A DNA stretch of 32,425 nt, from NCBI RefSeq assembly GCF_025060375.1, contig NZ_JANXCG010000014.1:1-32425 (forward strand). Direction: 5' to 3'. This stretch comes from Meiothermus sp. Lineage in GTDB: Bacteria; Deinococcota; Deinococci; Deinococcales; Thermaceae. The notes beneath the pieces were generated by a model. It worked only from the letters and a program-made list of their open reading frames with translations. It was not told the DNA's origin and made no database searches. Shown piece by piece: positions 56 through 32,425 of the stretch (its first letter is position 1; every line of letters starts with the position of its first letter). Made by a program: the position numbers and the translations under genes.

Positions 56-131
56 GCGGGAGTAGCTCAGTTGGTAGAGCACAACCTTGCCAAGGTTGGG
101 GTCGCGGGTTCAAGTCCCGTCTCCCGCTCCA
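56..131 (+). tRNA. tRNA-Gly (GCC)
   Basis: Full cloverleaf with acceptor stem GCGGGAG/CTCCCGC, D-arm AGCTCAGTTGGTAGAGC, anticodon stem CAACC/GGTTG around loop TTGCCAA (anticodon GCC), T-arm with GGTTCAAGTCC, discriminator T and an encoded CCA. It probably belongs to the transcript of the preceding 5S rRNA, since no promoter fits in the 10-base spacer. Confidence 0.97.
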
Positions 132-393: not shown

Positions 394-418
394 CCCCGTA
401 GGAACGGGGTTTTTGTTT
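394..418 (+). terminator. Rho-independent terminator
   Basis: Stem CCCCGT (394-399) pairs with ACGGGG (404-409) across the loop AGGA and runs into TTTTTGTTT. It is the first strong terminator after tRNA-Gly, so it may end the rRNA/tRNA transcript. Its T-tract merges with the -10 element of the next gene. Confidence 0.8.
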
Positions 419-423
419 AGAAT
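418..423 (+). promoter_or_regulatory. -10 element of the RLP gene (leaderless)
   Basis: TAGAAT, seven bases before ATG at 431. The place where a -35 would sit is inside the terminator hairpin, and no TTGACA-like box is visible. The same hexamer precedes the cupin, hpt and the 78-aa membrane protein. Confidence 0.6.
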
Positions 424-430
424 CCTGAGG

Positions 431-1522
431 ATGCCCTGGATACGCGCTACCTACCGCATTCGCTCGACCCCTGAGCAGATCGAGGCCCGGGCTCTGGCGC
501 TGGCCGTTGAGCAAAGCCTCGAGACCCCTCCCAGTGCGGTACCTGAGGCTTGGATCCTGGAGGAGGTGCTGGCCAGCGTGGAGGCCATCTGGGAGGAGAG
601 CCGAGGGAACTACCGGGTGGTCCTTCGGATGAATGCGGAAAACAGCGGCTTTGAGGTGGCCGGGCTGCTCAACGCGCTATTTGGCAACTGCTCCTTACAG
701 GAAGATGTGGAGCTTCTGGAAGCAGAACTCCCCCCGGAGCTAATTGAGGTTTTCCCGGGCCCCCGCCTGGGCATTCTCGGGCTGCGCCGCCTCACCGGGG
801 TCTACGGCCGCCCCCTCACCTGCACCGCCCTCAAACCCCAGGGCCTCTCCCCTAACCAGCTCGCCGCGCTGGCCCACACCTTTGCCCTGGGTGGGATTGA
901 CATCGTCAAGGACGACCACAACCTAGGCCAGCAGCGCTATGCCCCCTTTGCTGCACGGGTGCCCCTAATCCAGCGGGCCATCCAAAGGGCCAACGCCGAG
1001 ACCGGGAGGAATACCCTGTATGCCCCTATGCTGCTGGGGGGGCCTAAGGGATTGGCCCAGTCCCTTCGGATTGTCCGCGAAGAGGGCGTCCAGGTGGTGA
1101 TGGTAGCCCCAATGGTTCTGGGGCTCCCAGCCTTCTATGAGCTTGCGCAGGAACTGGACGTGGCCCTGTTGGCCCATCCGGCTTTTGCCGGCACCCGCAT
1201 GGCCCCTCCTCTTCTGCTGGGCCGGTTTTTCCGACTGTTGGGGGCCGATGCCTGCATCTTCCCCCACTACGGGGGCCGCTTCGCCTACAGCGAGGCCACC
1301 TGCGCCCAAATCGCCCAAAACCTCACCCAGCCCTGGGGTGTCCTCCAACCCACCCTGCCGGTTCCCGCTGGGGGCATGCGGGTGGAGCGCACTGAGGAAA
1401 TCGTGAGGTTTTACGGTCCAGACTGCATGCTGCTCATTGGCGGCGACCTCCTGAGCACAGGGGACGTCCTGGAGCGGACCCGGGCGTTTGTCCGCAAAGT
1501 GGCCTGTTGCGGCGTAGAATAA
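431..1522 (+). CDS. RuBisCO-like protein (type IV)
   Basis: The 363-aa product has the RuBisCO large-chain TIM-barrel signature. Visible are CTALKPQGLSP (K135, equivalent to catalytic K175 of spinach RuBisCO) and GGIDIVKDDHNLG, in which K160 matches the carbamylated K201 and D162 matches D203, but H163 stands in place of E204. LLAHPAF, then HYGGRF in the loop 6 region, PVPAGGM and the phosphate-binding LLIGGDLL follow. The changed metal ligand and loop 6 indicate a non-CO2-fixing RLP, not a carboxylase. The start at 431 is chosen because TAGAAT lies seven bases upstream; an in-frame ATG at 359 would put the terminator inside the gene. A cupin gene begins 7 bases after the stop. In R. rubrum an RLP isomerises 5-methylthioribulose-1-phosphate and a cupin uses the product; the same role here is inference. 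Alternatives are the YkrW/MtnW enolase and sugar-acid RLPs. Confidence 0.9.
   Translation: MPWIRATYRIRSTPEQIEARALALAVEQSLETPPSAVPEAWILEEVLASVEAIWEESRGNYRVVLRMNAENSGFEVAGLLNALFGNCSLQEDVELLEAELPPELIEVFPGPRLGILGLRRLTGVYGRPLTCTALKPQGLSPNQLAALAHTFALGGIDIVKDDHNLGQQRYAPFAARVPLIQRAIQRANAETGRNTLYAPMLLGGPKGLAQSLRIVREEGVQVVMVAPMVLGLPAFYELAQELDVALLAHPAFAGTRMAPPLLLGRFFRLLGADACIFPHYGGRFAYSEATCAQIAQNLTQPWGVLQPTLPVPAGGMRVERTEEIVRFYGPDCMLLIGGDLLSTGDVLERTRAFVRKVACCGVE
1515..1520 (+). promoter_or_regulatory. -10-like element before the cupin gene
   Basis: TAGAAT overlaps the last codons of the RLP gene (GTA GAA TAA) and lies nine bases before the cupin ATG. The cupin may therefore have its own transcript as well as read-through from the RLP gene. 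Confidence 0.45.
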
Positions 1523-1529
1523 CCGGGCG

Positions 1530-1982
1530 ATGAGGGCTCGAGCCAAGACCAAGCGGGCAGCCCAAGGATACACCTGGGAGGATGTGGAGGTGCTGGCCTA
1601 CAAGGCCGAGGGAACGGCCGCTTTCCGGGGGGTCACCCGGCAGGTGCTCTTCCGGGATCCCCAACTAGCCGCAGAGTGGCGCTATTTTGAGGTAGAACCT
1701 GGCGGGCACACCACCCTGGAGCGCCACCAGCACGTCCACGCCGTGATGGTCATCCGGGGCCGGGGGGCTTGCTTGGTGGGTGAGGAAGTGCACCCCATTG
1801 GGCTTTTTGACCTAATCACAGTACCCCCCTTTACCTGGCATCAGTTCCGCGCGGCTGAAGACGAGCCACTGGGCTTTTTGTGCTTGGTCAACGCCCAGCG
1901 CGACCGGCCCAAACTGCCCAGCCCAGAAGAGCTGGACGAGCTGCGGAAGAACCCTCAGGTAGCCGATTTCATCCGTGTCTGA
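1530..1982 (+). CDS. Single-domain cupin enzyme, possibly a methylthioxylulose-5-phosphate methylsulfurylase
   Basis: A 150-aa protein with one cupin barrel. Motif 1 is the HQHVH cluster (H66, H68, H70) followed by MVIRGRG; motif 2 is DLITVPPFTWHQF with H104. These would bind one divalent metal. The N-terminal ~55 and C-terminal ~35 residues flank the barrel, and the tail is charged (PEELDELRKNPQ). The gene starts 7 bases after the RLP stop on the same strand, so the two probably act together. In Rhodospirillum rubrum the enzyme after the RLP is a cupin that releases methanethiol from 1-methylthioxylulose-5-phosphate and yields 1-deoxyxylulose-5-phosphate. Assigning that step here is inference from the pairing. 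It could equally be another small-molecule cupin isomerase or dioxygenase. Confidence 0.85.
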   Translation: MRARAKTKRAAQGYTWEDVEVLAYKAEGTAAFRGVTRQVLFRDPQLAAEWRYFEVEPGGHTTLERHQHVHAVMVIRGRGACLVGEEVHPIGLFDLITVPPFTWHQFRAAEDEPLGFLCLVNAQRDRPKLPSPEELDELRKNPQVADFIRV

Positions 1983-14813: not shown

Positions 14814-17408
14814 ATGGCCGCATTCTATCGGGGGATGCTTGCGCTGCTGCGGGAGCTGGTAGGGAGCCCCAGCCCCGAACACATGCTGTCAACAGCCTTG
14901 GATGGCGCCCTGCGGCTCATTCCCGGGGCTCAGGCCGGCTCTGCTCTGCTGCGCGAGGGGCGCGACTACCGGTTCGTGGCCATACGGGGCCACGCGCTGG
15001 AGCTACCCAGCTACCCTTTGAGCCTAGAGGCCGAGCTACGCTGGTACGGCGGGAGCCTGGAAGAAGCCCTGCAAGCCCAGGCCCGCATCACCCGGCCAAG
15101 TCCCGAGCTAAGCGGCCTTTCCCCCAAGGACCAGGCCAGCCTGCAGCCCATCGCCTGGTCTCTGAACGTCCCCGTGCCCCTACTCGGGCGGGTAGAGGCC
15201 TGGCTGTGCCTGGACCGCTTTCAGAAAACTCCCTTCCCCCCAAAGGCCCTAGCCTACGCCCAGGAGCTGGGGAAAAACCTGGGGGTGGCGCTTTTGGCCC
15301 TGAAGGAGCGGCAGAACACCCAGGCCCGGCTCGAGCGGGAGGAACGCCTGGCTCACGCCCTGAGCAGGCTGTCCGCCTTTCGCAGGGCCGAGGAGCTCTG
15401 GGCGGCCCTACCCCAGCTCATCGGGGAGCTTCTGGGGGTAGAACGGACCACCGTGCTCAGGCGAGAGGGGGAAGCCCTACGGGTAGCCTTTGCCATGGGC
15501 TGGGACGCGCCCCTGGGCAGCGAGCTTCCCAAGGGTGCAGGCATCGCCTGGGTCGCCCTGAGCGAGCGACGGGTGCAGATGACCTCCCGGGACGACCCCC
15601 GGATCTACATCCGCCCCACCCACCTCCAGGACACCTACGCGGCATACATTCCACTGCACGACGGGCACCAGCAGGACTTCGGGGTGGCGGCGGCCTACGC
15701 CCAAAGCCCGTTTGGACCGGAGGAAGTGTCCGTCCTGGAGGCCTTCGGCCGAGGGGCGGGGCAGGCCCTGGCCCGGCTCGAGGCCGAGGCCGCCCAGACC
15801 CGGGAGCTGGCCCGGCTGCAGACCCTGGCCCAGGTAAGCCAGCACCTAAGCACAGCCCAAACCAGCGAGGAACTCCTACAGAAGGTGGTTAAGGTAGCCC
15901 TGGAGCAGACCCAGGCCTCCACCAGCCTGCTCTGCCTTTACCGGGCCGGGGAAGAGGTGCTGGAGATTGCTGCAGCAGCCGGCTTTGCCACTGAAAAAGC
16001 CCAGGGAGCGCGCTTTGAGCGGGGGCGGGGCCTGGCCTGGCGGGTGCTCGAGGCCCAACAGCCCCTCTACCTGAGCGACGCCTCCCAGCATCCAGAGGCG
16101 GTGTACCTATCCGGGGTTCGCACCCCCGCAGCCTACCTAGGTGTCCCGCTGAGGGACCCCGAAGGTCGGCTGATGGGGGTGCTCTCGGTGGACACCGCAG
16201 GGGTAGGCGGTCGGCTGGAACCCCAGGACCGGTACGTGGTGGAGGCCCTGGCCGAGGTAACCGGGGTCACCTATTCCCGCCTGCAGGCCCTCGAGCAGGC
16301 CCACCGGGAGACCGAGCGGTACCGCCGGCTGGTCCAGATGTCGGCCGACCTGGAAACCCTGGACGACCCCACCCAGATGGCCCAGCGGGCCCTGGAGACC
16401 CTTATCGAGCTCACCGGGCTTTCCGCTGGGGGGTTCTACCGCCTGGTCCTCGAGCAACCCCAGGAGGGCAAGGGCTTCATGGAACTCCTCCTGGGCTACG
16501 AGCGCCCGGGGGACGCCCGCTTACGGCACTTCAGCAGGCTCCCGGTGGTGCTGGGCAAGGGGTTCATGGGGCTGGCCCTGGCCACCAAGGAGGTGCAGCA
16601 CATTGAGGACTACCAAAGCTGGGAAGGGGCCTGGCCCTCGCTTCAGGCCCACGGCCTGCGCACCCTCCTCACCGCTCCCCTCTTCCTCAGGGGGGCCCCC
16701 TACGGCGCTCTTACCCTGGCCAGTTTCGGGCACAAGGCCGTGGTTTCGGAGGAGGACAGCGCCCTTCTAGAGGCGGTAGCCCGACGGCTCGAGCGGGCCT
16801 TGGAACGGGTCGCCCACCTGGAGGAAATCGCCCGCACCCGGGAGGACGCCCTGCGGGCTTTGGGCCTGGGCCTGGAGCTGCGCGATTTGGAGACCAAGGG
16901 CCACACCGACCGGGTGGTCGCCCTGACCGAGGGGCTGGGAAAGGTCCTGAACTTTCCCGATTTGGAGGGCCTACGCACTGGGGCCTACCTGCACGACCTG
17001 GGCAAGCTGGCCATCCCGGACGCCATCCTGCTCAAGCCCGGCCCCCTCACCGAAGCGGAATGGCGCATCATGCGGAGCCACTGCGACATCGGCTTCGGCA
17101 TGCTGGAGAGCCTGGGCTTTCTCTCCCAGACTGCGCGCAACATCGTTCGCTACCACCACGAGCGCGTGGATGGTTCGGGCTACCCCTTCGGCCTGAAGGG
17201 GGAGGAAATTCCCCTGGAAGCCCGTATCTTCGCCGTGGTAGACGTCTACGATGCCCTCTTGCAACCCCGACCCTACAAGCCCGCCTGGAGCCAGGAGGAA
17301 GCCCTCAAGGAGCTCAGAAGACAGGCTGGGCAAACCCTGGACGCCCAGGTGGTGGAGGCTTTTCTAGCCCTGGTTGCCCAAGCTGCACCAGCCCCCAACG
17401 GTTCTTGA
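14814..17408 (+). CDS. Multi-GAF HD-GYP phosphodiesterase (cyclic-di-GMP hydrolase)
   Basis: An 864-aa cytoplasmic sensor enzyme with no TM segment. Four GAF-like domains are visible at about 20-160, 180-320, 345-490 and 510-660, with a coiled-coil stretch near 315-345. The C-terminal HD-GYP domain (~670-860) has the HD pair at 727-728 in [10 protein letters not shown], an HH pair in [18 protein letters not shown], and G789-Y790-P791 intact. Such domains hydrolyse cyclic-di-GMP; the GAF domains would sense a small ligand, a haem or another nucleotide. The key metal and GYP residues are present, so it should be active. It ends 58 bases before the metK start, and the metK -10 element follows its stop. 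Confidence 0.93.
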
Positions 17409-17418
17409 CGGGGAGTGC

Positions 17419-17450
17419 TATACTCTTTCGGTTGACGCGGCCCGGCCGCG
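17419..17450 (+). promoter_or_regulatory. metK promoter -10 and leader palindrome
   Basis: TATACT at 17419-17424 follows the HD-GYP stop. TTGACG at 17405 is only eight bases away, too close to be its -35. The ~40-base leader holds an inverted repeat CGCGGCC-C-GGCCGCG (17436-17450) that ends just before the metK ribosome binding site, so it could fold and affect translation. Confidence 0.45.
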
Positions 17451-17466
17451 CCAGAGGAGGAGCAAG

Positions 17467-18642
17467 TTGCGAAGACTGGTGACTTCAGAATCGGTAACGG
17501 AAGGGCACCCCGACAAGCTGGCCGACCGCATCTCGGATGCCGTTCTGGACGCCATTCTAGCTAAAGACCCGCAGGCCCGGGTGGCCTGCGAAACCCTGGT
17601 GACCACAGGGCTGGTGATGGTGGCTGGAGAGATCACCACCGAGGCCTACGTGGACATCCCCCGGCTGGTGCGCCAGACCGTGCTCGAGGTGGGCTACACC
17701 CGCGCCAAGTACGGCTTTGACGGCGACACCTGCGCAGTGCTCACCGCCATAGACGAGCAGTCACCGGACATCGCAGGCGGGGTCAACGAGTCTTGGGAGT
17801 GGCGGGTGCTGGGCTCCCGGGATGAGCTGGACCGAATTGGTGCGGGCGACCAGGGCCTGATGTTCGGCTACGCCACCGATGAAACCCCCGAGCTGATGCC
17901 GCTGCCCATCTCCCTGGCCCACCGCCTCACCCGCCGCCTGGCCGAAGCCCGTAAGACCGGGGAGATTCCCTACCTACGCCCCGACGGCAAGGCCCAGGTC
18001 ACGGTGGTCTACGAAGGCTCCAAGCCCCTGTATGTGGGCACCGCCCTCATCTCCGCCCAACACTCCGAGGAGGTGGAGGCCGACCAGATCGCCCATGACA
18101 TCCGCACCAAGGTAATCGAGAAGGCCATTCCTGAGCAGTACCTGAGCAAGGAGACCCTCTACCTGATCAACCCTTCAGGCAAGTTTGTCATCGGGGGCCC
18201 CCACGGGGACACCGGACTCACCGGGCGTAAGATCATCGTGGACACCTACGGTGGAGCGGTGCCCCACGGCGGAGGGGCCTTCAGCGGGAAGGATCCGACC
18301 AAGGTGGACCGCTCCGCCGCGTACTACGCCCGCTACATCGCTAAGAACATCGTGGCCGCAGGTCTGGCCAAGCGGGCCCTGGTCGAGCTGGCCTACGCCA
18401 TCGGCAAAGCCCGCCCAGTCGGGATGCGGGTGGAAACCTTCGGGACCGGCACCATCCCCGACGAGAAGCTCACCGAGCTGGCCCAGAAGGTCTTTGATGC
18501 TCGTCCAAAAGCCATCATCGAGCAGCTCAACCTCCTGCGGCCCATCTACACCCCCACCTCGGCCTACGGCCACTTCGGCCGGGAGGGCTTCCCCTGGGAG
18601 AGGACCGACCGCGTGGAGGAGCTGCGCAAACAGCTCGCCTAA
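17467..18642 (+). CDS. metK: S-adenosylmethionine synthetase
   Basis: The 391-aa enzyme makes SAM from methionine and ATP. Motifs are [20 protein letters not shown] at the N-terminus, [12 protein letters not shown], and [20 protein letters not shown] with the catalytic lysine and aspartate region. Length fits the family. The frame is open to an ATG at 17374 inside the preceding gene, but TTG at 17467 is the likely start: GAGGAGGAG lies at 17454-17462, and MetK proteins start about here. Its product supplies TrmD, TrmB, RlmN and the methylthioadenosine that the RLP/cupin pair may recycle. A strong hairpin follows the stop. Confidence 0.98.
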
Positions 18643-30890: not shown

Positions 30891-31613
30891 TCAAGGCCCG
30901 GCATACCATAAAAGCTCCCGTTCCATCGGCCCCTCGTGACCCTCGAGGTGGAAGCTCTCCACTGCCAGGCGCTGGGGGAAGCGGTCCATAAAGTTGAGCA
31001 CCGAAAGGGCCTGGGTGCGGTGCTGGGCCATGGCCTTTAGCTTGCGCAGGAGCACATCCAGGGGTAGGTGCCGCACATGCGTGGGGGGCAGCCAGCCCTC
31101 CTGGTACTCCGGCAGCGGGTTGAGGGGCGCGTAGTAGAACAGGCGGATGCGCTGCCCCGAACGGCGCACCGCCTCCCTCACGAACCGGTGGGTGGCCACG
31201 TGGTCGGGATGCCGGTTGGAACCGTTGGGGCCAAAGGTGATCACCGCCCTAGGCCGCAGCACCTCAAAGCGCCAGAGGAGCAGGTCTACGATCTCCGGGT
31301 GGTCGGCTACCCCTTCAGAGCTGGCGAAGCCTACCCCCCGCGCCTCCCCTGCCCTTGCCCCGTTGGGCTGGCCGTTGGGAAACCCGTAGAGCTCGAGGTG
31401 CCCTAAACGCAAAACCTCCGCTGCCCGCCTGAGCTCCTGCGCACGAACCTCGCCCAGCTCCTCAGGGGCACAAAGGCCCAGGGTGCGCCCGGCCTCCCCC
31501 CGGGTCAGGGTGATGAGGCCTGTCTCCAGCCCCCACTCGGCGTACTGAATCAACGTGCCGCCTGCGCCGAAAACCTCGTCGTCTGGATGCGGCACCACCA
31601 CCAACAGGTCCAT
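30891..31613 (-). CDS. PIG-L/LmbE-family N-acetylglucosaminyl deacetylase (possible BshB)
   Basis: A 240-aa Zn-dependent deacetylase. The metal/catalytic motif PHPDDE lies at residues 8-13 (H9, D11, D12), TRGEAGRTLG follows near 35, and NRHPDHVATHRFV supplies the third ligand. Enzymes of this size act on GlcNAc conjugates; in Thermus and Deinococcus one removes acetyl from GlcNAc-malate in bacillithiol synthesis (BshB). That role is likely but cannot be separated from other LmbE enzymes by sequence alone. The frame is open upstream to 31727 inside the GH43 gene; MDLLVVVPHPDDE at 31613 is the natural start, although only a weak CATCAT precedes it, so it may be read from the GH43 transcript 41 bases away. 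Confidence 0.92.
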   Translation of the reverse strand: MDLLVVVPHPDDEVFGAGGTLIQYAEWGLETGLITLTRGEAGRTLGLCAPEELGEVRAQELRRAAEVLRLGHLELYGFPNGQPNGARAGEARGVGFASSEGVADHPEIVDLLLWRFEVLRPRAVITFGPNGSNRHPDHVATHRFVREAVRRSGQRIRLFYYAPLNPLPEYQEGWLPPTHVRHLPLDVLLRKLKAMAQHRTQALSVLNFMDRFPQRLAVESFHLEGHEGPMERELLWYAGP

Positions 31614-31654
31614 GCCCCTATGATGGCCCGGCGGGAATGGCGCCGCAACCCGAG

Positions 31655-32425
31655 CTACTCCAGAGGCCTGTAGGTAAAGTAGTCGAAGTCGGCAGGTAGG
31701 CGGGCCCCACTCAGGTCCTGTGCGCACAGTCCAATAAAGGTACCGGTAAAGCCCAAGCCCCTACAGTGCTCGTCAGAAAGCTTGTAGGTGGGGTAGCGCA
31801 GGGGTATGGGTTGCCAGTCTCGCCCGCTGGCCGAGTAGAAAAAGCTGAAGCTTTCCCGCTCAAAGCGCACCTTAAGGTAGACCCGGCTCCAGCCCTCAAC
31901 GGGTAGCTCCTGGCCTAAAGGCTCGTCGTAGCGGCCGTTTTCACAGGCCAGGATGTTGAGGGTCTTACCCAGGCGCTCGTCGCGGCTTAGGCGCAGGTAG
32001 ACCCAGTTACCGGTGTCGTAGTAGCAGACCAAGCCGGCCATCTGCTGAAAGTGTTGGGGTTCGAACTCGAGGGCCGTTTCGGCTTCGGCGTAAAAGTGCT
32101 CCAGGCGGCGGGCCACCAGGCTCTGGCGATGGCGCGAGCTGAGGGACTCCCGTCCGTAAAGCCGTAGATAGCCTGGCCGCTCACTGAGGGAGAGCCAGGA
32201 AGGGTCGGGGGGATGGCGCAAAGTCTGGAACTGGAGGCCCAAAGCAGGCCCGTCGAAGTCATCTCGCTCGGGCTCGGCGGGCCAGGGGTGGGGGGGCAGG
32301 GCAGGGGCCTCGACCTCGAGAGCGGGGGCATTGCCCCCATGAGCCAGCCGAGGCCAGCCATCCGATGTCCAGACCAGCTTTTGCAACGCGGTCTCGCGGC
32401 CCAAGGGGCAGTGCCGTTGGGGAGC
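31655..32425 (-). CDS. GH43 beta-xylosidase, C-terminal part (5' end outside the window)
   Basis: The last 256 codons of a gene that enters from the right edge. The first visible residues include CPLGRETALQ and then VWTSDGWPRLAHGG, the end of the five-bladed catalytic domain of GH43 beta-xylosidases. The rest is the C-terminal concanavalin-like sandwich: RDDFDGPALGLQFQTLRHP, ERPGYLRLYG, LVARRLEHFYAEAET, GLVCYYDTGNWVYLRLS and ending DFDYFTYRPLE. The enzyme would release xylose or arabinose from oligosaccharides; no signal peptide can be judged. The stop is 41 bases from the deacetylase start on the same strand. Confidence 0.88.
   Translation of the reverse strand, partial: APQRHCPLGRETALQKLVWTSDGWPRLAHGGNAPALEVEAPALPPHPWPAEPERDDFDGPALGLQFQTLRHPPDPSWLSLSERPGYLRLYGRESLSSRHRQSLVARRLEHFYAEAETALEFEPQHFQQMAGLVCYYDTGNWVYLRLSRDERLGKTLNILACENGRYDEPLGQELPVEGWSRVYLKVRFERESFSFFYSASGRDWQPIPLRYPTYKLSDEHCRGLGFTGTFIGLCAQDLSGARLPADFDYFTYRPLE

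Follow-up and report, generated by a model that had tools for sequence, protein, structure and literature searches.

A RuBisCO-like protein and cupin pair of Meiothermus predicted to serve a methylthioadenosine-isoprenoid shunt, and a split transketolase beside related proteins

We analyzed a window of 32,425 nucleotides that forms the start of a contig in a 2.39-Mb Meiothermus genome (99.8% complete). The window carries a gene for a RuBisCO-like protein (RLP) followed by a gene for a single-domain cupin (Table 1). Judging from sequence, these two proteins very likely recycle carbon from S-adenosylmethionine (SAM) by-products into an isoprenoid precursor, as in the methylthioadenosine (MTA)-isoprenoid shunt. 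Orthology, gene order and the presence or absence of partner genes were computed; the reactions are taken from the R. rubrum and R. palustris literature, and we infer their occurrence in Meiothermus. The initial annotation held that such a pair had not been described for this phylum, a claim refuted by two earlier reports: Meiothermus sp. has been named as a carrier of the RLP-cupin pair (North 2016, PMC4958253) and two Meiothermus species have been counted with it (Miller 2018, PMC5893883). The pair analyzed here is the same and comes from the same phylum, and the species of the window may differ from the two counted. The Meiothermus pair is thus already reported and largely ordinary, and its function in the phylum is a prediction.

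Table 1. Features located in the window
Feature	Position	Strand	Details
tRNA-Gly	56-131		
Intrinsic-terminator-like hairpin	394-418	+	CCCCGT-AGGA-ACGGGG-TTTTTGTTT; read from sequence
-10-like box	418-423	+	TAGAAT; 7 nt before ATG 431
RLP ORF	431-1522	+	363 aa; predicted 5-methylthioribulose-1-phosphate 1,3-isomerase, DeepYkr type
Cupin ORF	1530-1982	+	150 aa, single-domain; predicted 1-methylthioxylulose-5-phosphate methylsulfurylase
metK	17374-18642		574.9 bits
LmbE/PIG-L-type deacetylase	30891-31727	-	resembles BshB2, 78 bits vs cut-off 195

The RLP matches the Pfam RuBisCO_large family (E = 1.6e-24). Its best solved relative by phmmer is 3qfw (E = 4.3e-104, 351.9 bits, 47% identity), which leads the best MtnW (132.3 bits) by 220 bits. 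The structure record itself says just Rubisco large subunit; 3qfw presumably represents R. palustris RLP1. In an IQ-TREE phylogeny of 36 sequences, with the R. rubrum RLP itself left out, 3qfw is joined, with a support of 100/100, by the window RLP and every other DeepYkr-type RLP from Thermaceae, and the whole group of RLPs carrying KDDH is set apart from MtnW (99/97). The tree placement suggested in the initial annotation therefore puts the protein with R. palustris RLP1 and outside MtnW. The catalytic lysines that had been noted as kept in this type IV RLP are indeed found at K135 (TALKPQG) and K160 (GGIDIVKDDH). Together with H163 and H249, both are the same in the window RLP and 3qfw (K175/K201 equivalents, KDDH). 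After KDD, the window RLP shares a histidine (His163) with R. palustris RLP1, where MtnW and Rubisco have Glu. Deletion, metabolite and in vitro work have identified R. palustris RLP1 as a methylthioribulose-1-phosphate 1,3-isomerase (PMC5893883). Sequence comparison supports the assignment of the window RLP to the clade of this characterized isomerase, and to neither MtnW nor the sugar-acid RLPs.

The cupin matches Pfam Cupin_2 (E = 1.6e-12). Its best PDB match is 3kgz (E = 2e-53, 59% identity), presumably the R. palustris cupin, followed by 3jzv (E = 1.5e-50, 57% identity over 135 aa), whose deposition names Rru_A2000, the methylsulfurylase of R. rubrum. The motif E64-x-H66-x-H68-x-H70, together with H104 and C118, is invariant across 20 aligned sequences; H66/H68/H70 and H104 correspond to the HxHxH and second-motif histidine first read from the sequence. 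Residues E64, H66, H68, H70 and H104 are candidate metal ligands, and this full set is kept with the cysteine C118. These matches make the cupin an Rru_A2000 ortholog and a predicted 1-methylthioxylulose-5-phosphate (MTXu-5P) methylsulfurylase.

Both ORFs were located at 431-1982, separated by 7 bases (1523-1529), as initially annotated. The RLP probably starts at ATG 431: its alignment with 3qfw runs from residue 2, and a TANNAT-like box is located immediately 5' of this codon. All 11 readable orthologues have such a box directly before their RLP start codon, the sequence farther upstream being different, and its conserved position suggests that the RLP transcript is leaderless. The hairpin preceding the box probably terminates the upstream rRNA/tRNA-Gly transcript. 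We considered a riboswitch or attenuator in the RLP leader and rejected it: no riboswitch was matched in Rfam anywhere in the window, and apart from the -10-like box the upstream sequence is unconserved among orthologues.

The cupin gene is directly downstream of the RLP gene in every Thermaceae genome carrying a DeepYkr-type RLP (12/12). These genomes represent 10 of the 18 genomes of the window's genus and both genomes of genus g3; genus g4, presumably Thermus, lacks such an RLP in all 27 of its genomes. More distant adjacent RLP-cupin pairs are found at six loci in KSB1, Planctomycetota, Sumerlaeota and Gemmatimonadota. Adjacency kept within the family and in four other phylum-level groups is therefore not due to chance. 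Among named organisms, Meiothermus luteus has the closest RLP, with 85% identity over the full length. In the M. luteus assembly, the cupin gene (L071 76-524) is interrupted by a frame change at a G-run following residue 59, which may be a sequencing error. Another genome of the same genus (G040) encodes a cupin 82% identical (L074 7020-7463) with no adjacent RLP and no DeepYkr-type RLP elsewhere in the genome. ORFs of ~480 aa weakly similar to the RLP are present at L037 and L038 and in further genera g1 and g4 genomes, and are probably the form I Thermus-clade Rubisco described in PMC12999727; no such ORF was found in the window's own genome.

In the proposed pathway, MtnA would supply 5-methylthioribulose-1-phosphate, which the RLP would isomerize to 1-methylthioxylulose-5-phosphate. 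The cupin and a thiol, probably bacillithiol, would convert this product to 1-deoxyxylulose-5-phosphate (DXP) and a methylthio-thiol adduct. The methanethiol set free would react with O-acetylhomoserine to give methionine, and the DXP would enter the MEP pathway alongside the DXP made by Dxs. The corresponding RLP-cupin pair of R. palustris is functional in vivo and in vitro (PMC5893883).

Partner genes were sought by searching the genome against family cut-offs. This search identified mtnA (G000:C1:6674-7594, 400.5 bits vs cut-off 279), an O-acetylhomoserine sulfhydrylase gene (G000:C14:48805-50061, 631.5 bits vs 495.1) and dxs (722.8 bits, over cut-off); given dxs, the shunt is unnecessary for DXP supply. 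Conversely, mtnC and mtnD, the latter encoding acireductone dioxygenase (ARD), are absent from all 18 genomes of the genus. The presence of mtnA and absence of mtnC and mtnD, together with the RLP1 clade and the Rru_A2000 orthology, agree with the functional reading proposed at the outset, a methylthio-sugar isomerase paired with a methylsulfurylase. The initial annotation had also proposed looking for mtnP and mtnA without mtnBCD: mtnA was found and mtnC and mtnD were absent, but canonical mtnP was not found. It had further pointed to metK ~16 kb away; the gene is present, but we rejected it as a functional neighbor, since at 15 kb, with unrelated genes intervening, its position has no evidential weight.

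No match to canonical mtnP exceeds the cut-off in the 111 genomes of the order. Putative MtnP genes are mentioned for listed species in PMC5893883, whereas by the curated model none in the order qualifies. In the window's own genome, the best match to the mtnP model is a 6-oxopurine PNP-I paralog (60 bits vs 274.85), one of five genes of the PNP/UDP phosphorylase family, the others being a DeoD-type PNP, MtnN (over cut-off), a uridine-phosphorylase type and a futalosine hydrolase. PNP-I was rejected as the MTA phosphorylase, both for its membership in the 6-oxopurine family and because its T. thermophilus counterpart has no detectable adenosine activity (PMC11430618). For the latter reason we favor the DeoD-type PNP as the candidate source of methylthioribose-1-phosphate. 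As another phosphorylase may fill the step, the missing canonical mtnP lowers the completeness of the pathway and not the RLP-cupin assignment. With MtnN present and no methylthioribose kinase gene (mtnK) found in the genome, hydrolysis of MTA would be a dead end. A class II aldolase of the fuculose-phosphate type is encoded 3 kb from mtnA, a proximity lost in most relatives. It was rejected as MtnB, scoring 68.6 bits vs a cut-off of 137, with the T. thermophilus fuculose-1-phosphate aldolase as best match.

The thiol used in R. rubrum is glutathione (PMC5893883). Bacillithiol is the main thiol of T. thermophilus (PMC6445937), and for this reason the co-substrate of the Meiothermus cupin is, by analogy, probably bacillithiol rather than glutathione. 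The deacetylase listed in Table 1 may be part of bacillithiol metabolism, although a score below the BshB2 cut-off does not make it proof of this thiol.

The Meiothermus system resembles the R. rubrum shunt (Rru_A1998 RLP, Rru_A2000 cupin) in having a DeepYkr RLP and an Rru_A2000-type cupin (57%), mtnA and O-acetylhomoserine sulfhydrylase, and in the absence of mtnC and mtnD. It differs in the adjacency of the two genes, as the R. rubrum locus tags imply an intervening gene, in the missing canonical MtnP, and probably in the thiol. The R. palustris rlp1-cupin genes (RPA2169-RPA2170) likewise form an adjacent pair, with 47% (3qfw) and 59% (3kgz) identity to the Meiothermus RLP and cupin. However, in R. 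palustris mtnP adjoins mtnA and Ald2 is verified, whereas in Meiothermus just the fuculose-phosphate-type aldolase is seen.

The top-scoring NCBIfam family for the RLP is the MtnW enolase (169 bits), and no DeepYkr-type family is among the matches. The RLP could accordingly be read as a 2,3-diketo-5-methylthiopentyl-1-phosphate enolase of the universal aerobic methionine salvage, with the cupin taking over a step that is missing, for instance that of the dioxygenase. Yet the scores are well under the cut-offs (169 vs 409, and 126 vs 513.6 for another MtnW model), and the RLP is parted from MtnW by a strongly supported branch and by KDDH in place of KDDE. In addition, mtnC and ARD are absent and the cupin is the Rru_A2000 ortholog and no ARD, making this reading highly improbable. 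Bacillus and Geobacillus MtnW (YkrW) shares the RuBisCO superfamily and a role in methionine salvage, but forms a separate clade with KDDE and serves a dioxygenase pathway whose mtnC and mtnD were not found in Meiothermus. A role as a sugar-acid decarboxylase/isomerase, with the cupin as a sugar isomerase, is suggested by a weak match to OiaX; at 78 bits against a cut-off of 700, with none of the sugar-acid genes adjoining the pair and the RLP grouping with RLP1, we give this role almost no credence.

Alternatively, the pair may act mainly on a related sugar phosphate, such as 5-deoxyribulose-1-phosphate derived from 5'-deoxyadenosine, or on an unidentified ketose phosphate. Upstream enzymes of this kind are promiscuous, canonical MtnP is missing, and the fuculose-phosphate-type aldolase near mtnA could process methylthioribulose-1-phosphate. 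Against this, the cupin retains the residues of Rru_A2000, the invariant cysteine among them, which fits cleavage of a methylthio group, and a 5-deoxy sugar is sulfur-free; we therefore consider a related substrate unlikely and retain the MTA-isoprenoid shunt.

Two further families of the same order, f4 and f5, encode a related RLP (36-44% identical by tblastn) with no such cupin alongside. In the same tree, these RLPs form their own clade (support 100/98). Directly upstream of the RLP, all 14 f4/f5 loci (L021-L034) carry a two-part transketolase of N and C halves. The nearest solved structure is the Carboxydothermus split transketolase (6yaj/6yak); DXP synthase is a further match of the C-terminal half (154 bits). 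In the five longer f4/f5 stretches (L079-L083), the RLP cluster includes mtnA, joined by mtnK in four. Genus g17 has an enlarged mtnK-mtnA cluster that contains transporter-like ORFs, with an aldolase/short-chain dehydrogenase fusion and DhaK in L081 and DhaL in L082; it looks like a catabolic operon for 5-modified ribose. The natural reading of the gene order is that the product of the f4/f5 RLP would be cleaved by the split transketolase, and the cluster is possibly an undescribed route for methylthioxylulose-5-phosphate. We found no description of an RLP combined with a split transketolase in the open-access papers searched. We tentatively propose that the isomerase product has two fates in the order. 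In the Meiothermus type it would pass to a bacillithiol-using cupin, with an unrecognized first enzyme starting from MTA. In the sister families it would serve as substrate for a split transketolase/DXS-like enzyme dedicated to it, whose genes directly precede that of the RLP and are accompanied by mtnA and mtnK, in an undescribed sulfur-sugar salvage.

Taken together, oxygen-independent methionine salvage, first worked out in purple bacteria, would span much of Meiothermus and its sister genus. The Meiothermus pair points to two testable questions, namely which enzyme makes methylthioribose-1-phosphate and which thiol is used in bacillithiol-reliant organisms. The cupin-free RLPs with a split transketolase are more novel than the RLP-cupin pair and provide a fresh lead on a second fate of the same intermediate.
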